A stretch of 48,506 nucleotides of DNA from an uncultured Ruminococcus sp. (GTDB lineage Bacteria; Bacillota; Clostridia; Oscillospirales; Acutalibacteraceae). The DNA lies in assembly GCA_902768825.1 (NCBI GenBank), contig CACXMR010000010.1:1-48506 (forward strand), read 5' to 3'. A program made the translations under genes and the position numbers. Below, piece after piece: positions 33,312 through 41,904 of the stretch. The notes under the pieces are model-generated. The model worked only from the letters and a program-made list of their open reading frames with translations, had not been told where the DNA came from and searched no databases. Within the stretch, counting starts at the first letter, position 1. Each line of letters opens with the position of its first letter.

Positions 33312-33788
33312 ATGAAAAGGGCAAAGCGTATTGCTGTTGTCTGCATGCTTGCGGCAATGATAATCGCAGGAGGCGCAGTATCCGTTTCTGCATCCGAGGC
33401 GACTTCAAAGCCTGCTGAGAGTGAATCGGTTGTCACTGTGGACGGTGACAGCACCGAAACTCAGAAGCCAGCCCGCAAGGCAAAGAGACAGGCAGCGTCT
33501 GCTACCGAGGGAACATCTGACTCCACAGCAGACAACAACACCAAAACTCAGAAGCCTGCCCGCAAGGCAAAGAGACAGGCAGCGTCTGCTACCGAGGGAG
33601 CATCTGACTCCACAGCAGACAGCAGCACAAAGACTCAGAAGCCAGCCCGCAAGGCAAAGAGACAGGCAGCGTCTGCTACCGAGAGAGCATCTGACTCCAC
33701 AGCAGACAACAGCACCAAGACTCAGAAAAGAACCCGCAAGTCCCAGAAGCAGGAGACGTCAAACTCCGATTTGATCGAGATTGCCTAA
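33312..33788 (+). CDS. Secreted basic repeat protein, function unknown
   Basis: 158 aa. A signal peptide (residues 1 to about 28, 'VCMLAAMIIAGGAVSVSASEA') precedes three near-identical 29-residue repeats and a partial fourth. Each repeat joins a basic half (QKPARKAKRQA) to an uncharged/acidic half (ASATEGTSDSTAD). The rest of the protein is nothing else, so it is probably an unstructured, strongly basic exported protein that could bind anionic wall polymers, DNA or polysaccharide. AAAGGATGGG precedes the ATG. A terminator follows. I know no family for it. Confidence 0.7.
   Translation: MKRAKRIAVVCMLAAMIIAGGAVSVSASEATSKPAESESVVTVDGDSTETQKPARKAKRQAASATEGTSDSTADNNTKTQKPARKAKRQAASATEGASDSTADSSTKTQKPARKAKRQAASATERASDSTADNSTKTQKRTRKSQKQETSNSDLIEIA
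33459..33740 (+). repeat. 87-bp in-frame tandem repeat, three copies plus a partial
   Basis: Units start at 33459, 33546 and 33633, each 87 bp and nearly identical; a diverged partial unit starts at 33720. The unit length is a multiple of three, so copy-number change keeps the frame. Replication slippage could alter the length of the encoded protein. Confidence 0.9.
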
Positions 33789-33889: not shown

Positions 33890-35371
33890 TCAGCATAGTG
33901 GAAGCTCGATAACAAAGGTACAGCCTTTATCAGGCTCGTTTCTTGCATAGCACCTGCCGTTGTGCAGCTCAGTTGTTTGCTTGACTATGGCGAGTCCAAT
34001 ACCTGACACGCCCTTTCCTTGTCTCATGCGTGAGGTATAATATCTGTCCCAGATGTGATCGATCTCGCTGTCCGGGATACCGCTGCCGAAATCCCTTACC
34101 TCAACGATTGCTTTTGTTCCTTCTTTTCGCAGTGTAATGCGGACCTTTCTGCTGTCCCTCGTGTGCCTTACCGCATTATCAACAAGATTATACAGCGCTC
34201 TTTCGAGACGGCTCTGGAGACCCGGTGTAAAAACATTGCTTTCGATATTCTCTTCAATAATGTAGCCCTGGTGCTTGTAGAGGGAATCAAAGCTGTCAGC
34301 GGTTTTTTTGACCAATGAGCTCAGATCCACCCTGCTGTGTTCTGTTAGCTCCGAAATGCCGCTGCCATCTGAGTTTTCTGACTGGTTCAGTTTCATATTA
34401 CGGGTTTTCAGCTCGGAGTATTCCATGATCTCATTGACAAGAGCAGTCAGTCTGTCAGCTTCCTTGATGATAACATCTATATCCTTTGTGCACTGAGCTT
34501 CATCCTCACGGGAGATATCCCTTACCATCTCCGCATAACCCTTTATCATAGTAAGCGGCGTTCGCAGATCATGGGATACATCAGCCAGAAGCTCCATCTG
34601 ATAGTTGCGGGATTCAATAAGCTTGCAGTTGGTTTTGTCGAGAGTTTCATTGAGGTCATCAAGCTCAGAACACAGGCCTTTCTTAAATTCTGCTGTATAG
34701 TCGTTTTCTCCCAATCTCTTTGCCTTTTCAGAAAGCTTCTTGACAGGAACGGCAAATTTCCTTGCTATCAGCCATGACAAGAGAAATCCGATTATGAGAG
34801 AGAGGATGGTGACCCACACAAGCATAATGCTGATAACTGTTACGGAAGCTCCCACAGGGTCTATGGATGCAACCACATACAGAACGGACTGTTCATCAGA
34901 GTCATAATAATCAATATACGCTCCATAAGCGAAATAGTTGTCAGTGTAAAATTCGGTGGTTCCGCTGTCAGAGCCTTGCAATGCTGCAAGAAAGCTGTCA
35001 TAGTATTCAGGCAGGGAGCGGAAGCTGTGCTTATCAAGCTTCTTTTCTCCAAAGCCGTTTCCGTTTTTTCCATGGCCTTTTGTTTCCTTAAACGCATCTG
35101 AACTGTAAAGGATAGTACCGTCTGTTTTGGTGACAAAAACCAGCAGGGAGTTTTTGTGAGCGAGGGTGTCGATTGTGCTGTTTATTCCCGGCTCAGAGCT
35201 GCCGCTGATAATCTGCTCGGCTGTCTGCTTGGTGTTGCTTATCAGCATTGCGTTGTAGAAGCTCTGAAGAAAAACCGTCTGCAAAAGCCACAATACAGTA
35301 AATATCAGTGCTGTAAACAAAACAAAATAGATCCACAGCTTGAATCCAAAGGAACGGGTGTTAAGCTTCAA
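33890..35371 (-). CDS. Membrane sensor histidine kinase
   Basis: 493 aa with a TTG start that overlaps the response-regulator gene by 11 bp; GAGGGGTGG lies upstream. Membrane helices at about 11-35 and 176-203 flank an extracellular sensor of about 140 residues that is rich in Tyr, Asp and Ser. A HAMP segment follows, then the phosphoacceptor His267 in 'DVSHDLRTPLTMIKGYAEM', and an ATPase domain with 'NLVDNAVRHTRD', 'DFGSGIPDSE' and 'GIGLAIVK'. It phosphorylates the co-transcribed regulator. Facing the dlt-like operon, it probably senses envelope state or cationic stress (inference). Confidence 0.93.
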   Translation of the reverse strand: MKLNTRSFGFKLWIYFVLFTALIFTVLWLLQTVFLQSFYNAMLISNTKQTAEQIISGSSEPGINSTIDTLAHKNSLLVFVTKTDGTILYSSDAFKETKGHGKNGNGFGEKKLDKHSFRSLPEYYDSFLAALQGSDSGTTEFYTDNYFAYGAYIDYYDSDEQSVLYVVASIDPVGASVTVISIMLVWVTILSLIIGFLLSWLIARKFAVPVKKLSEKAKRLGENDYTAEFKKGLCSELDDLNETLDKTNCKLIESRNYQMELLADVSHDLRTPLTMIKGYAEMVRDISREDEAQCTKDIDVIIKEADRLTALVNEIMEYSELKTRNMKLNQSENSDGSGISELTEHSRVDLSSLVKKTADSFDSLYKHQGYIIEENIESNVFTPGLQSRLERALYNLVDNAVRHTRDSRKVRITLRKEGTKAIVEVRDFGSGIPDSEIDHIWDRYYTSRMRQGKGVSGIGLAIVKQTTELHNGRCYARNEPDKGCTFVIELPLC

Positions 35372-36032
35372 ATTTATATCCCACCCCTCTTATAGTATGA
35401 ATATAGCCGCGGTAATCGCCAAGCTTGCTTCTGAGAAGCTTGATCTGCCAGTCAACAGTTCTGTCGTCTCCGAAATACTCATATCCCCAGACCTCATTCA
35501 AAATCTGATCACGGGACAAAACGATACCCTTGTTTTTTACAAGATAAAGCAATACCGCATACTCTTTTGCTGTCAGCTCAAGCCTGTTACCGTCTATACT
35601 GACGTTATGTCCGAGGGTGTCTATCTCAAGTCCGGAAATCTTGATCGTGCCCGATTTTTTGACAGGATCGGCGCAGTGCCGTCTCAGGATCACCTTTATC
35701 CTTGCCATAAGCTCTTTCGGGGAGAAGGGCTTTGTAACATAGTCGTCCACACCCACTTCAAATCCGAACAGCTTATCAAATTCCGTTCCTCTTGCAGAGA
35801 GCATGAGAATAGGGGTGTCCGAAGTCTCTCTTATTTTACGGCAGGCGGTAAAGCCGTCCATATCAGGCATCATGGCGTCCATGATAATCATATCAAAGCT
35901 TTCCCTTGAGCATATCTCAACGGCGTCGATTCCGTCACCCAGACTTGTGACCTCATAGCCTTCTCTTTCGGCATAGCGGGAGATCAGTGCCGCTATATCC
36001 GGTTCATCATCTACAATAAGTATTCTTGGCAT
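35361..36032 (-). CDS. OmpR-family response regulator
   Basis: 223 aa from the ATG at 36032, seven bases after AAAGGTGG. The receiver domain has the acidic pair 'VDDEPD', phosphoacceptor D52 ('IIMDAMMPDMDG'), the Ser/Thr switch 'MLSARG' and 'YVTKPF'. The C-terminal winged helix has 'LTAKEYAVLLYLVKNKGIVLSRDQILNEVWGYEYFGDDRTVDWQIKLLRSKL'. The likely target is the divergent operon starting at 36256, 224 bp away, and its own promoter. Confidence 0.95.
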   Translation of the reverse strand: MPRILIVDDEPDIAALISRYAEREGYEVTSLGDGIDAVEICSRESFDMIIMDAMMPDMDGFTACRKIRETSDTPILMLSARGTEFDKLFGFEVGVDDYVTKPFSPKELMARIKVILRRHCADPVKKSGTIKISGLEIDTLGHNVSIDGNRLELTAKEYAVLLYLVKNKGIVLSRDQILNEVWGYEYFGDDRTVDWQIKLLRSKLGDYRGYIHTIRGVGYKFEA

Positions 36033-36070
36033 AGTTTTCACCACCTTTGTCTATAGTAACCTCTAAAACC

Positions 36071-36141: not shown

Positions 36142-36238
36142 AAAGTGCAAAATACACTTTTGGAGAGCGCATTATAGCCTTGACTTTTTCATATGTAAAA
36201 TATATAATCAACTTGGCAAGTGTCCTATGCAAAAGCAT
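36142..36238. promoter_or_regulatory. Divergent promoter with flanking inverted repeats
   Basis: The plus-strand promoter is TTGACT (36180-36185), 17 bp, TATAAT (36203-36208). Upstream lies AAAGTG-N7-CACTTT (36142-36160), ending 19 bp before the -35 box. Downstream lies ATGC-AAAA-GCAT (36227-36238), just past the transcription start. The first is well placed as an activator site; the second could be an operator or a short hairpin. Confidence 0.6.
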
Positions 36239-36255
36239 TACTCATAATATTCTGA

Positions 36256-37791
36256 ATGAAGGTGAATACTACGATAATTGTTTTGACGATGCTTGAAACA
36301 AGCAGTTTACAACACCCTGGAAAGGTTGCTGTCCGTGAAAGGGAAAAGTTTCTTACCTATTCGGAGCTGAACGAGCTTAGCAAGAGAACCGGTTCCATGC
36401 TTGCAAAGAGGATAGCTCCCCGGACTCCTGTAGGAGTGTATATGGAAAAGGGCATAGACGCTCTCGTGTCGTTTTTTGGGATAGTCTATGCAGGCGGTTT
36501 TTATTCAATGTTCAATACCGAGCTGCCCGATGAGCGGCTAAAGACTATGAAAAGCGTCCTTGATACGGGCTTTATCATAACTACAAGGGAACTGCTTCCC
36601 AAGGCGGAAACACTTTTTTCTGGTGCGGAAATATATATTATTGAGGATCTCATGCAGGCAGAAATTGACGCCTGCGCCCTTGACGCCATCAGGTCACGGA
36701 TGATCGACACCGACCCTCTTTATATAAACTTCACATCAGGCTCTACAGGCATTCCAAAGGGAATTGCGGTATCTCATAGAAGCGTGATCGATTTTATCGG
36801 ATGCTTTACAAGGCTGTTTTCGATTAATGAGGATGATATTATCGCAAACCAGGCGCCCTTTGACTTTGACGTGTCTGTAAAGGATATCTATTCCTCGCTG
36901 TTTGTAGGTGCAGAGCTTGTTATCGTGCCGAGAGAATACTTTTCTGCACCTGTCAAGCTGTTGGATCTCCTGTGTGATAACAAGGTCACGGTTATGATCT
37001 GGGCTGTCTCAGCTCTTTGCCTTATCAGCACCTTCCACGGTCTGGATTATAAAACGCCTGAAACTGTCAAAAAGATCCTTTTCAGCGGCGAGGTAATGCC
37101 CTATAAGCACCTTCGCCAGTGGCAGACACATCTTCCCGGTGCAATGTATGTCAATCTCTACGGCCCCACGGAGATCACCTGCAACTGTACCTATCATATT
37201 CTCCAAAAGGACAGGGATTACTCCGCCGGCATACCCATCGGTATACCGTTTCCAAATGAGGATGTTTTTCTCCTCAGTGCTGACAATAAGAGGATAACCG
37301 AAAAGGGAGTGACAGGCTCTATTGTAGTCAGGGGCACGGCTCTTGCTCTGGGTTATTACAGGGATCCCCAGAGAACCGCTCAGGCATTTGTGCAGGACCC
37401 GATTAATTCCTGCTACCCGGAAACAGTGTATCTTACGGGAGATCTTGGTGAGTACGATGAAAACGGGGAGCTTGTTTTCCGCGGCAGATCCGATAACCAG
37501 ATCAAGTATATGGGGCACCGCATAGAGCTTGAGGAAATAGAACGTGCAATGTCTGCGATTGAAGGCGTAGATCGTTGTATGTGTATCTTTGACGAGTCAA
37601 AACAAAAGCTGAAGGGCTTCTATATGGGAACCATCGAAAAAAACCAGCTCCACACTATAATGCGTGAAACAATGCCTGCTTTTATGGTGCCGGGCTATAT
37701 CCGCAAGGTGGAAGAGATGATACTGACAAAAAACGGCAAGCTTGACAGAAAAAAGACAGCAGAGCTGGTGGGAGGAAGCAAAAATGGATGA
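36256..37791 (+). CDS. DltA-like amino acid adenylating enzyme (carrier protein ligase)
   Basis: 511 aa from the ATG at 36256; a later ATG (36289) would lose 11 residues and neither start has a convincing site. The adenylation core motifs are complete: 'FTSGSTGIPKG' (159-169), 'FDFDVS' (202-207, the Asp that holds an alpha-amino group), 'FSGE' (276-279), 'LYGPTE' (301-306), 'YLTGDLG' and 'GRSDNQIKYMGHRIEL', and the catalytic Lys in 'NGKLDR' (Lys495). It should activate an amino acid with ATP and load it on the carrier protein at 38992. DltA proteins usually have FCGE, where the Cys helps select D-alanine; here it is Ser, so another substrate is possible. The next gene overlaps by 8 bp. Confidence 0.85.
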   Translation: MKVNTTIIVLTMLETSSLQHPGKVAVREREKFLTYSELNELSKRTGSMLAKRIAPRTPVGVYMEKGIDALVSFFGIVYAGGFYSMFNTELPDERLKTMKSVLDTGFIITTRELLPKAETLFSGAEIYIIEDLMQAEIDACALDAIRSRMIDTDPLYINFTSGSTGIPKGIAVSHRSVIDFIGCFTRLFSINEDDIIANQAPFDFDVSVKDIYSSLFVGAELVIVPREYFSAPVKLLDLLCDNKVTVMIWAVSALCLISTFHGLDYKTPETVKKILFSGEVMPYKHLRQWQTHLPGAMYVNLYGPTEITCNCTYHILQKDRDYSAGIPIGIPFPNEDVFLLSADNKRITEKGVTGSIVVRGTALALGYYRDPQRTAQAFVQDPINSCYPETVYLTGDLGEYDENGELVFRGRSDNQIKYMGHRIELEEIERAMSAIEGVDRCMCIFDESKQKLKGFYMGTIEKNQLHTIMRETMPAFMVPGYIRKVEEMILTKNGKLDRKKTAELVGGSKNG

Positions 37792-38968
37792 TCACATCAG
37801 CAGATTGATTAAAGAAAACCAGTGTTCCTTCTATGTGTTTGATATCGGCGAGCTGAAAAGACGCATAGCCTATCTCAGAAATAGTCTGCCCCAATATGTG
37901 GAGCTGTGCTATGCTGTAAAGGCCAATCCCTTTATATCAAAAGAAATAGAAAATGATGTCCAGCGGTTTGAGATCTGTTCTCCCGGTGAAGCGGATATCT
38001 GTAAAGCTCTTGATATTGACAGCAATAAAATGGTCATTTCGGGCATATATAAGACTCCCTCCGTCATTGAACAAATGGTTGCCGATGACAGCTTCAAGGG
38101 GATATTCACTATTGAATCCCTGAGACAGTATGAGCTGCTGCTCGGACTTGCAGAAAAGTATAACAGAAGGCTTGAGGTTTTGCCGAGACTGACAAATGAC
38201 AGTCAGTTTGGCATGGATGAGTCGGATATTGAAATGATCGTTTCACAGCGGCAATCAAGAAAAGCTCTCGAGGTTGTGGGAGTGCAATACTTTTCAGGCA
38301 CACAAAAGACCTCTCTGAAAAAATACAGGAGGGAGCTTGAGCACCTGACGGCATTTCTTGACAGGCTTCGTGAAGAGTATTCCTTCATTGCCCGTGAGCT
38401 TGAATATGGAACAGGCTTTCCTGTTTCTTACTTTGAGGGCGACAAGACAGACGAAAAGGAATTGCTTGCAGGCTTTTCGGAAATACTTGATGAGCTGCCG
38501 CAAAAGCCCCGCATCATTCTTGAGATCGGCAGAAGCATAGCCGCCTCCTGCGGGCGTTATTACACTCATGCAGTGGATATCAAGCAAAACAAAGGGCAGA
38601 GCTATGTGCTGACTGACGGCGGGATGCACCATATAGTCTATTTTGGCCAGTATATGGCGATGAAAAAGCCGTTTGTATCCGTCGTTGGAAAGAATAGCAC
38701 CTGCGATGACAAGCAATGGACTGTCTGCGGTTCCCTTTGCTCTATGAATGATATTCTTGTCAAGCAGATCAGCCTGCCGGATATGGAGGTGGGAGATGTG
38801 CTTTGCTTTGAGAATGCAGGGGCATACTGCATGACAGAGGGTATATCTCTTCTGCTGAGCAGGGATCTTCCTGCGGTTTACCTTGTGAGGGAAAACGGCG
38901 AGCTGTACAGGGTGCGTAAGCCCTTTGAAACCAAAGCACTCAACTGTCCGCAATACGAAAAAATGTGA
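37784..38968 (+). CDS. Fold-type III PLP-dependent decarboxylase (BtrK/LysA/ODC family)
   Basis: 394 aa from the ATG at 37784, preceded by GGGAGGAAG; it overlaps the adenylating enzyme gene. The PLP-binding Lys46 is in 'CYAVKANP'; 'EICSPGEAD', 'YFSGTQ' (171-174), 'YGTGFP' (phosphate loop) and 'LEIGRSIAA' follow. The C-terminal 'CGSLCSMND' (C319) and 'FENAGAY' match the active-site Cys and Tyr of diaminopimelate/ornithine decarboxylases. The fold also includes alanine racemases, but the Cys and FENAGAY motifs favour decarboxylation. BtrK of butirosin synthesis is the relevant precedent: it decarboxylates glutamyl bound to a carrier protein. Dlt operons normally have no such gene. Confidence 0.85.
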   Translation: MDDHISRLIKENQCSFYVFDIGELKRRIAYLRNSLPQYVELCYAVKANPFISKEIENDVQRFEICSPGEADICKALDIDSNKMVISGIYKTPSVIEQMVADDSFKGIFTIESLRQYELLLGLAEKYNRRLEVLPRLTNDSQFGMDESDIEMIVSQRQSRKALEVVGVQYFSGTQKTSLKKYRRELEHLTAFLDRLREEYSFIARELEYGTGFPVSYFEGDKTDEKELLAGFSEILDELPQKPRIILEIGRSIAASCGRYYTHAVDIKQNKGQSYVLTDGGMHHIVYFGQYMAMKKPFVSVVGKNSTCDDKQWTVCGSLCSMNDILVKQISLPDMEVGDVLCFENAGAYCMTEGISLLLSRDLPAVYLVRENGELYRVRKPFETKALNCPQYEKM

Positions 38969-38991
38969 CCAAAAAGAAAGGATGTTTAATT

Positions 38992-39222
38992 ATGGAAAAG
39001 CTTATCGAAATACTTGAGGACATCAAGCCCGATGTTGACTATGCCACCTGCACGAGTCTGATAGACAGCCATATCCTGGAGTCTCTTGATATTATTTCGC
39101 TTATTGCCGAGCTTGAGGAGGAGTTTGATATCACGATTCCTGCTATCGAGATCATTCCCGACAATTTCAACTCCGCAGAGCGCATGATGAAGATGATCGA
39201 GCGTCTGCAAGAGGAGTATTGA
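38992..39222 (+). CDS. Acyl/aminoacyl carrier protein (DltC-like)
   Basis: 76 aa from the ATG at 38992, behind AAAGGATG. The likely phosphopantetheine serine is Ser31 in 'HILESLDIISLI' (usual form DSL). The flanking four-helix pattern ('LIEILEDIKPD', 'EEEFDITIPAIEI', 'MMKMIERLQEEY') is that of a small carrier protein. It should hold the activated amino acid as a thioester. No phosphopantetheinyl transferase is in the window. It follows the decarboxylase by 23 bp and precedes the MBOAT gene by 1 bp. Confidence 0.85.
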   Translation: MEKLIEILEDIKPDVDYATCTSLIDSHILESLDIISLIAELEEEFDITIPAIEIIPDNFNSAERMMKMIERLQEEY

Positions 39223-39223
39223 G

Positions 39224-40858
39224 ATGGATATTGCATCTCTGTTTCTGGGAGGAAGCGGGTCTGTGATGACCTCCTTCTTCTCATTGACTTTTCTCATTGC
39301 ATTTTTGCCTGTCAGTCTTTTAGCCTATGCTGTGGTTCCCCACAAGGCTAAAAAATTCGTACTTCTGATTGCAAGCCTTGTGTTTTTCTGGCTTGTCAGC
39401 AGTGTTCTTATTGTCTATCTGTTTTTGACGATACTTTCTGTTTTTCTTTTCGGAAAATGGCTTGATAAGATCCAGCGCACCATGAAGGAAGTATTGTCAA
39501 AGACCGAAAAGGAGAAGCGCAAAGAAATAAAACAAGGGTTTGTCCATCGTCAGAGAATGGTGCTTCTGCTTGCGGTAATCCTTCATGTCGGGCTTCTGCT
39601 CACCCTGAAGTATTCGGGATTTTTTGCAGACAACATCAACTCACTCCTTTCACTGGTGAACGCTCCCTTTGAGATCCCCGTCCCAAAGCTTATGATGCCT
39701 ATAGGCATATCGTTTTTTACTCTACAGGCTGTATCATATATTACGGATGTCTATCACGGGTTGATAAAGGCGGACGGGAATATCCTCAGGATATCACTTT
39801 TCATCAGCTTTTTCCCGCAGATCGTTGAAGGCCCGATTTGCCGTTATTCGCAGACAGCCGATCAACTCTGGAACGTCAAACAGATCGAGTATAAAAACCT
39901 GACATTTGGTCTGCAGCGTATCTTATATGGCATGATGAAAAAAATAGTCATCGCCGACCGTCTCGACCCTATGGTGAAGGCGATATTTGACGAACCAAAT
40001 AATTACCACGGCGGGATCATTTTTCTTGGTGCGGTTTGCTACACCATACAGCTTTATATGGACTTCTCCGGATCAATGGACGCAGTTATGGGCATTGCGG
40101 AGATATTCGGCGTGAAAATGCCGGAGAATTTTGAAAGGCCATTCTTTTCAAAGTCAGTCTCAGAGTTTTGGAAGCGCTGGCACATCACCCTGGGAACATG
40201 GTTCAAGGACTACATATTCTATCCGGTAACATCCACCAAAAAGATGAAAAACCTGACATCCTCAGCCCGCAAAAAGCTGGGCAACCACTATGGCCCTCTT
40301 ATTGCAGGAGGCGTAGCACTGTTTTGCGTGTGGTTCTGCAACGGCTTGTGGCACGGTGCGGGATGGAATTATATCTTTTTTGGAATGTACCATTTTGTGC
40401 TGATACTCGGGGGCAATATGATCACTCCCCTTGCGAACAGGTTTTTTAAAGCAGTAAAGCTCGATCCTGAATGCTTTGTTTATCGTTTGTTCAGGATAAT
40501 CAGGACAGCGCTGCTTGTTGTGATCGGTGAGCTGTTCTTCCGTTCCACAGGACTTATGAGTGGTTTTGGTCTTTTCGGAAGGATAGTGTCAGACTTTTCC
40601 TTCTCGGGTCTCAACAGTGAGCTGTTAAAGAAGCTTTCCATTGACCCGCAGGATTTCATTATCATCGGAATTACCCTTGTGGCAGTGTTCATCGTCAGCC
40701 TGATGAATGAAAAGGGCATAAGTCTCAGAGATAAGATCGCAAAGAGAGGCATTGTGACCCGGTGGTGCATTTTTTATGCGCTGATCCTCTTTATTATCAT
40801 TTTTGGTGCTTACGGCTTCGGATATATACCTGTAGATCCGATGTACGCAAACTTTTAA
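39224..40858 (+). CDS. MBOAT acyltransferase (DltB/AlgI-like)
   Basis: 544 aa from the ATG at 39224 (GAGGAG 7-12 bp upstream). The ATG at 39266, just before 'SFFSLTFLIAFLPVSLLAYAVVP', matches the usual family start and is a real alternative. Ten or more membrane helices carry 'PIGISFFTLQAVSYITDVYHG', 'FFPQIVEGPI', 'FWKRWHITLGTWFKDYIFYP' and the catalytic His in 'NGLWHGAGWNYIFFGMYH'. It should take the acyl group from the carrier protein across the membrane. The last residues are 'DPMYANF': a Tyr at -4 and a final Phe, like the FxYxxF tail of DltX that accepts D-alanine. Confidence 0.9.
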   Translation: MDIASLFLGGSGSVMTSFFSLTFLIAFLPVSLLAYAVVPHKAKKFVLLIASLVFFWLVSSVLIVYLFLTILSVFLFGKWLDKIQRTMKEVLSKTEKEKRKEIKQGFVHRQRMVLLLAVILHVGLLLTLKYSGFFADNINSLLSLVNAPFEIPVPKLMMPIGISFFTLQAVSYITDVYHGLIKADGNILRISLFISFFPQIVEGPICRYSQTADQLWNVKQIEYKNLTFGLQRILYGMMKKIVIADRLDPMVKAIFDEPNNYHGGIIFLGAVCYTIQLYMDFSGSMDAVMGIAEIFGVKMPENFERPFFSKSVSEFWKRWHITLGTWFKDYIFYPVTSTKKMKNLTSSARKKLGNHYGPLIAGGVALFCVWFCNGLWHGAGWNYIFFGMYHFVLILGGNMITPLANRFFKAVKLDPECFVYRLFRIIRTALLVVIGELFFRSTGLMSGFGLFGRIVSDFSFSGLNSELLKKLSIDPQDFIIIGITLVAVFIVSLMNEKGISLRDKIAKRGIVTRWCIFYALILFIIIFGAYGFGYIPVDPMYANF

Positions 40859-40876
40859 GGGGAGGTGTTTGAATAT

Positions 40877-41857
40877 ATGAAGGTCTTTTTAAAGCACTCC
40901 CTCAAAGCCGTTGTGTTTATGGCGGGTCTGCTGGTGTTTCTCATTGCGGCATCGGCAATCCTGCTCCCTCGGAATAACAGGGAGGAGGACTGGAAGCATG
41001 ATGTTCAGGCACACGGAATACTTGCTGAGCCGGAAAACACTATCGACGTGCTTTTCATCGGTGACAGTGAGGTGTATTCATCAATCAATCCTCTGAGGAT
41101 ATGGCAAAGCTATGGTTATACATCCTATTGTCTCAGCGCAAGCAAGCAGAGGCTGTGGTATAGCCTTGAGTTTTTTAACATGGCTATGCGGACCCAGCAG
41201 CCTAAGATAGTCGTGCTTGAAACAAACAGCCTTTTCAAGGCTTTTCCGGCAGAGGATTCCATGATGCATTCAATGGATCAGGTGCTGCCTGTATTCAAAT
41301 TCCATGATCGCTGGAAATGTCTGAAATTTGAAGATATTTTCCGCTCACCCCAGTATACGCATATCGAAAACAGGAAGGGCTACAGGCTTTATAAGGAATC
41401 CGATCCCGCTGACATAGAGGGATATATGGAGGAATCCGAAAATGTAGAATACATATCCTTCCTGAATAAGATCTATATTAATATTATTGCCAGCACCTGC
41501 AAGCAGCAGGATATAAAGCTTGTCTTTCTTAGCACCCCCAGTACAATGAACTGGAATATGAGAAAGCATAACCGTATGGAGAAGCTGTCTGAGGAGCTTG
41601 GCACTGACTATCTTGACCTGAATCTTGCCCATGATGGGTTTAGTATTGATTGGGAAAAGGATACCAGGGACAAGGGCGATCACATGAATTATTTTGGCGC
41701 TGAAAAGGTAACGGCCTATGTGGGAAGCTACCTTAACAGCACGGGCATCCTTGTGCACCACGAGGAAAAAGCTATTTGCAAGGCTTGGAACAAGGCGCTG
41801 AAAACCTTTACTGATGATGTGGACAAATGGCTTTCCACGCTTGCCGCTTCTGAATAG
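40877..41857 (+). CDS. Membrane-anchored SGNH-type exported protein (DltD-like role)
   Basis: 326 aa from the ATG at 40877, behind GGGGAGG. One N-terminal membrane helix (about 10-30) anchors an extracellular domain. The SGNH block I is 'DVLFIGDSEVYSSINP' and the block V Asp/His pair is probably 'DKGDHMNYFGAEKV'. This matches the DltD/AlgX/PatB-type exported hydrolases that pass acyl groups to polymers. In dlt systems DltD finishes transfer to teichoic acid; the same role here is inferred from position after the MBOAT gene. Overall sequence does not look like classical DltD. Confidence 0.72.
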   Translation: MKVFLKHSLKAVVFMAGLLVFLIAASAILLPRNNREEDWKHDVQAHGILAEPENTIDVLFIGDSEVYSSINPLRIWQSYGYTSYCLSASKQRLWYSLEFFNMAMRTQQPKIVVLETNSLFKAFPAEDSMMHSMDQVLPVFKFHDRWKCLKFEDIFRSPQYTHIENRKGYRLYKESDPADIEGYMEESENVEYISFLNKIYINIIASTCKQQDIKLVFLSTPSTMNWNMRKHNRMEKLSEELGTDYLDLNLAHDGFSIDWEKDTRDKGDHMNYFGAEKVTAYVGSYLNSTGILVHHEEKAICKAWNKALKTFTDDVDKWLSTLAASE

Positions 41858-41865
41858 TGCAATAA

Positions 41866-41904
41866 AAAATCAAGCACCGCTCTCGCATTTGAGAACGGTG
41901 CTTT
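41866..41904. terminator. Bidirectional terminator, dlt-like operon and guaA
   Basis: AAGCACCG (41872-41879) pairs with CGGTGCTT (41896-41903), extended inside by TCTC/GAGA. On the minus strand it is followed by GATTTTTTATT, a good T-run for guaA; on the plus strand the T-run is weak. Confidence 0.75.

Follow-up and report, generated by a model that had tools for sequence, protein, structure and literature searches.

The stretch of DNA analysed here (the window; 48,506 nucleotides, contig CACXMR010000010.1 of assembly GCA_902768825.1 from an uncultured Ruminococcus sp.) carries five packed genes on the + strand at 36256-41857, free of inner stops, for an adenylating ligase, a pyridoxal phosphate (PLP) enzyme, a carrier protein, a membrane-bound O-acyltransferase (MBOAT) and an SGNH protein (Table 1). 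The ligase and PLP enzyme genes overlap by 8 nt and the following junctions measure 23, 1 and 6 nt. Pfam recognises AMP-binding in the ligase (4.7e-61), Orn_Arg_deC_N and Orn_DAP_Arg_deC in the PLP enzyme (1.6e-17 and 1.7e-15), MBOAT in the fourth protein (1.4e-16) and PP-binding in the carrier (5.4e-4; 20.6 bits, slightly below the cut-off of 20.8), and has no match for the SGNH protein. The first four genes are recognised by Pfam and NCBIfam, all well below the curated cut-offs of their named relatives. An earlier note on this DNA had named the same set, with the second gene as a fold-type III PLP decarboxylase, and coordinates, Pfam and a model of the SGNH protein agree with it. The operon is best called a variant of the Dlt/MBOAT-SGNH kind. 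We consider the finding sound and decarboxylation of an amino acid on the carrier before export its most likely interpretation, a role in lysine supply being unlikely.

Table 1. The five-gene operon and flanking features, in window positions.
Feature	Position	Strand	Description
Ligase, 511 aa	36256-37791	+	Stand-alone amino acid adenylating ligase, kin of DltA and non-ribosomal peptide synthetase adenylation domains; pocket code DVKSLSLCN-K
PLP enzyme, 394 aa	37784-38968	+	Fold-type III PLP decarboxylase, BtrK/exosortase-associated type; ATG start
Carrier protein, 76 aa	38992-39222	+	Acyl/peptidyl carrier, Ser in HILESLDI
MBOAT, 544 aa	39224-40858	+	Acyltransferase with WHG His; shuttle peptide PMYANF fused at the C-terminus
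SGNH protein, 330 aa	40865-41857	+	Transferase with Ser68 and His273; GTG start; N-terminal helix 2-33, probably a membrane anchor
Possible promoter	36180-36208	+	TTGACT-17-TATAAT, 47 bp 5' of ligase; 11/12 consensus matches
Hairpin, possible terminator	41872-41903	listed on -	13-pair stem, between SGNH gene and convergent gene
Two-component system	33890-36044	-	Kinase and response regulator (Pfam), divergent; candidate regulator
GMP synthase, 326 aa	41923-42903	-	ATPase part only, no glutaminase match; convergent with operon
Small protein	33312-33788		About three tandem KPARKAKRQAASATEG-like repeats; adjoins two-component system

The order of the genes is conserved. Loci were selected via similarity of the PLP enzyme, so the counts describe near relatives, and the 95 locus rows comprise 90 distinct loci and five repeats. 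The full five-gene order, which the earlier note had proposed to seek in other genomes, stands in 74 of the 90 distinct loci, seven of these having an extra or split copy of one gene. Among the remaining 16, six end at a contig edge (five after ligase-PLP, one after the MBOAT) and ten are variants: three read ligase-carrier-PLP, three have two MBOAT-SGNH pairs and four are of other kinds (L079, L085, L118, L123). Upstream of the PLP gene, the closest member of the operon families is the ligase in 87/90 distinct loci and the carrier in 3/90; gene order is thus conserved beyond chance. The commonest other neighbour-gene cluster occurs in 39/95 loci, with position and strand varying, and for this reason no sixth operon gene is claimed. 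At an E-value of 1e-40 or better the PLP enzyme was found in 16 of 200 genomes of the same family, and by profile search at 1e-60 in 4 of 398 genomes drawn from the phylum, the window's own being included in both counts. A scan of named genomes gave at least 571 relatives; the best 80, which were examined, include Ruminococcus bromii ATCC 27255 and 5AMG, Catenibacillus scindens, Agathobaculum and Pseudoflavonifractor. The sole same-genus genome among the 200 (G121) has a sister operon in which the PLP enzyme was not found, and in two more same-genus genomes a search at 1e-60 gave no such MBOAT; presence of the operon thus varies within the genus.

The ligase passes the cut-off of TIGR01733 (326.5 against 317.4 bits) and falls well below that of the DltA model TIGR01734 (265.1 against 559.85). 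By alignment its pocket reads D235 V236 K239 S278 L299 S301 L322 C330 N331 with catalytic K517, in a GrsA numbering assigned by motif that we take to be the usual convention; position 239 is Lys209 of the window ligase. Two DltA relatives, one of which (L044) is itself below the DltA cut-off, read D L M/L S L C T/L V A, with Met/Leu at 239 and Cys at 301 where Lys and Ser stand here. Judged by this exchange of Met/Leu and Cys for a basic residue and Ser, the ligase is not a DltA. A basic residue occupies position 239 in 95/95 distinct full-length ligases of decarboxylase operons (91 Lys, 4 Arg), with Asp235 beside Lys239 in 91 and Ile235 beside Arg239 in 4; seven of the 102 ligase rows were repeats, and five of 96 operon rows were excluded from the codes as shorter than 450 aa. 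According to a review of macrolactam starters, beta-amino acid substrates have their amino group held by a conserved Asp of the adenylation enzyme (excerpt of PMC11284099). A pocket with Asp235 and Lys239 suits an amine together with a second carboxylate and appears a poor fit for free beta-alanine or gamma-aminobutyric acid (GABA). Several frames of 1186-6016 aa elsewhere in the window's genome (G000, contigs C4, C13, C36, C43 and C52) also carry one or more adenylation domains, probably of non-ribosomal peptide synthetases, and one such domain reads DAKQTGTID.

This pocket bears on the order of the steps. The same ester would arise if the PLP enzyme decarboxylated Asp or Glu in free form and the free beta-alanine or GABA so formed were activated by the ligase afterwards. 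Gene order alone does not fix the step order, and the statement of the earlier note that a free amine cannot be adenylated is incomplete, since beta-alanine and GABA keep a carboxyl and could be adenylated in free form. However, a basic residue in all 95 ligases poorly fits a substrate that, apart from the activated carboxyl, offers only an ammonium group, and argues for loading before decarboxylation, and the PLP enzyme, which has no distal Arg, resembles BtrK with its carrier-bound substrate. We therefore regard decarboxylation of the free amino acid as improbable. Carrier-bound decarboxylation would require that the ligase activates the distal carboxylate. Asp235 in the main group is a weak indication of Asp over Glu as the substrate, and it is speculation that the minor group, which does not have Asp235, might take Glu. 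The code for Glu itself is DAKDLGVVD.

The PLP enzyme was aligned as 96 operon rows (91 distinct, five repeats) with 19 LysA rows. The Schiff-base Lys (Lys46 in the window) is kept in 96/96 operon rows and the catalytic Cys (Cys319) in 95/96, with a gap in one. The distal Arg of the LIRPxxY motif, present in 19/19 LysA rows, is Tyr in 95/96 operon rows and a gap in the other; C-E, also in 19/19 LysA rows, is C-T or C-S in 95 operon rows, and K-F-G (18/19 LysA) is Q-F-G in 96/96. The Tyr of LIRPxxY is variable, being kept in 14/96 rows, the window's among them. Presumably the Arg, C-E and Tyr residues of LysA hold the distal part of diaminopimelate (DAP). BtrK, an exosortase-associated enzyme and two Streptomyces cluster enzymes likewise have no distal Arg and read C-T and Q-F-G. 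The signature of a BtrK-like pocket is thus present in the operon enzyme: C-T/S, Q-F-G, no distal Arg, and its place in a tree of 66 rows (a subset of those available), where the operon enzymes form one group (SH-aLRT, the Shimodaira-Hasegawa-like approximate likelihood ratio, of 99) on the side of the carrier-type enzymes and opposite LysA (99). By sequence the closest solved structure is BtrK (1e-29; 2.7e-51 with a profile of 15 sequences). The best NCBIfam match is the exosortase-associated TIGR03099, at 165.6 bits against a cut-off of 478.45.

The earlier note had also allowed a DAP-to-lysine role. In a scheme of this kind the ligase would load DAP via its L-centre and the PLP enzyme trim the D-centre to give a lysyl-carrier and a lysyl ester, or else the PLP enzyme would make free lysine. 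The fold family does include DAP decarboxylase, and the enzyme scores 155 bits with the LysA model TIGR01048, though below its cut-off of 297.9. Against this stand the lost distal Arg and C-E, the possibility of loading lysine directly, and a separate lysA-like gene in 16/16 operon genomes tested; 11 of these matches lie over the same cut-off and five, the window genome's included, just under it (268-288 bits), and those five do carry the LysA Arg and C-E. Because the distal Arg and C-E are lost, BtrK-type residues stand in their place and a separate lysA-like gene is present, the PLP enzyme is, on its residues, not a LysA. Supply of free lysine by a LysA is rejected on the same residues and separate genes, and the lysine role as a whole is left unsupported and in our view very unlikely. 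A second proposal, in which the ligase, in the manner of DltA, would activate D-Ala or a different amino acid supplied by the PLP enzyme as a racemase, we find scarcely credible. The enzyme shares the N-terminal barrel and has a weak Ala_racemase_N match (24.8 bits), but its C-terminal domain is Orn_DAP_Arg_deC, without a racemase C-terminal match, the catalytic Cys is kept, and the ligase does not have the Met/Leu and Cys of DltA. A Streptomyces plasmid cluster (L127, 5941-10048) encodes a decarboxylase annotated as DAP decarboxylase together with a holo-acyl carrier protein synthase, a ligase and a carrier; this decarboxylase has no LysA Arg, and has C-T and Q-F-G.

On the export side, where row counts include repeats, the carrier matches the DltC model PRK05087 below its cut-off (1.9e-9) and its Ser motif is present in 89/89 homologue rows. 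The MBOAT reaches 159.5 bits with the DltB model TIGR04091, against a cut-off of 375. WHG is found in 91/91 MBOAT rows, and the C-terminus reads Y-x-x-F in 89 and Y-x-x-Y in 2; the window protein ends in PMYANF and those of the minor group in FIYMQF or FVYMQF. A 2025 study reports that PatA transfers acetyl to the Tyr within the FXYXXF peptide at its own C-terminus (FIYANF in N. gonorrhoeae), that a peptide acetylated in this way can feed PatB, and that in the Dlt pathway a shuttle motif of FXYXXF type sits on DltX (excerpt of PMC12148441). The window peptide has P where FXYXXF has its first F. From this motif, the MBOAT is predicted to carry its own C-terminal tyrosine shuttle, as PatA does. 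The space between the five genes, to which the search for DltX was confined, leaves no room for a separate DltX gene. An AlphaFold2 model of the SGNH protein (mean pLDDT, the predicted local distance difference test, of 95.7; 54-row alignment) shows an SGNH fold together with a long helix at the N-terminus. In Foldseek its best and most numerous matches are SGNH/GDSL enzymes, with Enterococcus DltD (6pfx) at rank 37 and low TM-scores (template modelling scores) of 0.39 and 0.35. Ser68 and His273 are invariant in the 54-row alignment, window included; more widely, 81/92 rows have a GDSE-type pattern and 91/92 a GxH/YxN pattern. The SGNH assignment follows from the confident model, the Foldseek matches and the invariant Ser68 and His273. 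All the elements of an MBOAT-SGNH shuttle are thus encoded, namely the MBOAT His, the C-terminal Y-x-x-F peptide and a partner of SGNH fold, the acyl-Tyr itself being predicted. As read from these motifs, the operon joins a Dlt input, the carrier, to a Pat-type output, the fused shuttle.

The export pair is also what speaks to whether the five genes might instead make a secreted small molecule or lipid, with no polymer decoration. Related decarboxylase-ligase-carrier sets do occur in antibiotic-type clusters, and at L175 (6949-10170) a ligase-PLP-carrier set, followed by a SEC-C protein, has no MBOAT or SGNH gene recognised nearby. Yet an MBOAT gene lies downstream in 85/90 distinct loci (in L118 with a weak match of 72 bits), the other five being at a contig edge, and the layout described for acylation of envelope polymers is that of an MBOAT-SGNH pair having a shuttle peptide (excerpt of PMC12148441). 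A small-molecule product is unlikely on these grounds, a shade more so than decarboxylation of the free amino acid.

Sister operons were sought with the MBOAT in 300 family genomes, 81 of which had a match at 1e-60. A further 51 MBOAT stretches were fetched and 62 mapped in all (L165-L226); a usable ligase was present in 36 and not in 26, mostly because it was unrecognised beside the MBOAT or cut. Three kinds of operon were distinguished by the content of the slot after the ligase: decarboxylase, GNAT or nothing recognised. Two operons (L167 and L193) have a GNAT acetyltransferase-like protein (in L167 at 1528-2367) between ligase and carrier and the ligase code DVKSMSLCN, also present in some decarboxylase operons. 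Among 23 distinct operons with nothing recognised in the slot, 17 (L165, L166, L168 and 14 among L184-L222) have neither Asp235 nor a basic residue at 239 and read SM[LTS][ST][LM]ALDI, and 6 read D-A-K...G-M/I/V. The cargo of the SM[LTS][ST][LM]ALDI ligases may lack an alpha-amino group and is perhaps a hydroxy acid. A basic residue at 239 is thus present in all tailored operons compared and absent from 17/23 untailored ones. In a ligase tree of 66 rows, again a subset, all 62 sampled operon-type ligases form one group (99), apart from DltA and from the peptide synthetase domains of the window's own genome, which were represented by two of seven.

Our results provide a model for how a tailored aminoacyl group could reach the cell surface. 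The parts, their conserved order, the residues lost and kept and the shuttle motif are matters of sequence; from them we infer the substrate, the carrier-bound order of the steps and the acceptor. On balance we think it rather probable that the ligase loads Asp or Glu by the distal carboxylate, that CO2 is then removed on the carrier, and that Tyr and Ser in turn hand the resulting beta-alanyl or GABA group on to a surface polymer, to which it becomes esterified. The ligase would adenylate a small dicarboxylic amino acid, which may be Asp, Glu or a less usual one, through its distal carboxylate and load it onto the carrier, the other carboxylate sitting on the pocket Lys209 (GrsA 239). The BtrK-like PLP enzyme would then remove the free alpha-carboxylate on the carrier to give a beta-alanyl- or GABA-carrier, an action on an aminoacyl carrier that gene adjacency suggests. 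From the carrier the MBOAT would transfer this group to the Tyr in its C-terminal PMYANF, on the outer side of the membrane, and the SGNH protein would then accept it on Ser68 and esterify the surface polymer. Carrier-bound decarboxylation followed by Dlt-like transfer, the core of the earlier note, thus emerges as the reading best supported by residues, order and pocket, and the lysine variant attached to it does not. In the vicenistatin system VinN-VinO-VinL, 3-methylaspartate is loaded on VinL and then decarboxylated by VinO; in the fluvirucin B2 pathway, which has a beta-alanine starter, FlvN accepts Asp (excerpt of PMC11284099). Similarly, BtrK decarboxylates glutamyl-BtrI to a GABA thioester (excerpt of PMC7857480). 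On-carrier decarboxylation is therefore known chemistry; neither for its pairing with an MBOAT-SGNH exporter nor for the operon itself was a description found among open-licence PMC papers, judged by title and start of abstract.

Several observations weigh against this scheme. If Glu were activated at its alpha-carboxylate, Lys239 could hold that of the side chain, and such a Glu could then not be alpha-decarboxylated. This Lys is also found in both GNAT operons and in 6/23 untailored ones, so it is not unique to decarboxylation. Because the pocket codes track clades, they amount to a few lineages and do not count as 120 independent cases. Side-chain volumes, summed to gauge the size of the pocket, gave 1154 for the operon, 1150 and 1204 for DltA and 1163 for GrsA-Phe, with no discrimination; the GrsA, Glu, Asp and Orn codes behind this comparison are those we take to be standard. 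The columns of the HxxIxTG loop are gaps in 96/96 operon rows and this region is retained in BtrK, the exosortase-associated enzyme and the two Streptomyces enzymes, a difference that sets the operon enzyme apart from a plain BtrK. The PLP tree has long branches, which drew a program warning, and does not settle the kinship of the operon enzyme to BtrK, and the model of the PLP enzyme is weakest (pLDDT below 50 at residues 282-292) around the site of the lost Arg. Foldseek ranks a plant (Arabidopsis) DAP decarboxylase just above BtrK with similar scores, and telling BtrK from LysA by fold was abandoned as it gives no separation. Finally, no single polymer is tied to the operon: PF04464 teichoic polymerases are present in 10/16 operon genomes, and so absent in 6/16, and in 11/14 others (one of the 11 below cut-off), and PF04464 was rejected as an acceptor marker because it does not track the operon.

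Some loci vary on the acceptor side. L035, L036 and L110 have two MBOAT-SGNH pairs beside one ligase and one carrier, and L088 has four SGNH genes in a row with one ligase and one carrier, which hints at more than one acceptor. More tentatively, and as an idea to which we give slightly less than an even chance, the operon may represent a second widespread chemistry of surface aminoacylation, in which an envelope polymer of gut Clostridia would bear beta-alanyl or GABA esters made through decarboxylation on the carrier, and a modular slot (decarboxylase, GNAT or nothing) would each time provide another surface group. D-Ala esters set surface charge in well-studied Firmicutes. A DltA over cut-off was found in 1/149 sampled genomes of the phylum and a DltB over cut-off in 0/30 genomes of the family. 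The operon may replace D-alanylation in such gut and rumen Clostridia, R. bromii among them, with a group chemically unlike D-Ala. Near neutral pH, hydrolysis of beta- and gamma-amino esters should be slower than that of D-alanyl ones, which, if true, could be an advantage of beta-alanyl or GABA groups. The operon also offers a direct test case of whether the MBOAT-SGNH export route accepts carrier-tailored cargo, with five genes and one residue, Lys209, as handles.

The promoter call is weak, as the overall scan gave 12 sites against 10.5 in shuffles, and the window holds no Rfam family at threshold and no tRNA gene. Besides the convergent GMP synthase gene, the window's genome has at another place a 517-aa frame with the glutaminase domain (G000:C12).

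Compared with known systems, the operon resembles the exosortase-A-associated pair TIGR03098/TIGR03099 in that ligase and decarboxylase are adjacent (Sinorhizobium), although its proteins score well below both cut-offs. No MBOAT is annotated within the 13 kb region inspected at the Sinorhizobium locus, and nothing on the function of the exosortase-A-associated ligase and decarboxylase was found among open-licence PMC papers. With VinN-VinO-VinL, FlvN and BtrK-BtrI the operon would share an amino acid on a stand-alone carrier and PLP-dependent decarboxylation there; their product feeds a polyketide or an aminoglycoside, whereas that of the operon would feed an exporting acyltransferase pair, and BtrK has a loop region that is deleted in the operon enzyme. 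PatA-PatB peptidoglycan O-acetylation and other MBOAT-SGNH pairs share the C-terminal Y-x-x-F shuttle of the MBOAT and the SGNH partner, but are described as acyl-CoA users without a carrier (excerpt of PMC12148441), whereas the operon encodes a carrier and a ligase. The Dlt pathway (DltA, DltC, DltB, DltX and DltD) likewise brings together ligase, carrier, MBOAT and SGNH protein, with a carrier-fed MBOAT. The operon departs from it in a ligase with a changed pocket that scores below the DltA cut-off, in the added decarboxylase, in a shuttle fused to the MBOAT with no DltX among the five genes, and in an SGNH protein that is only remotely DltD-like.

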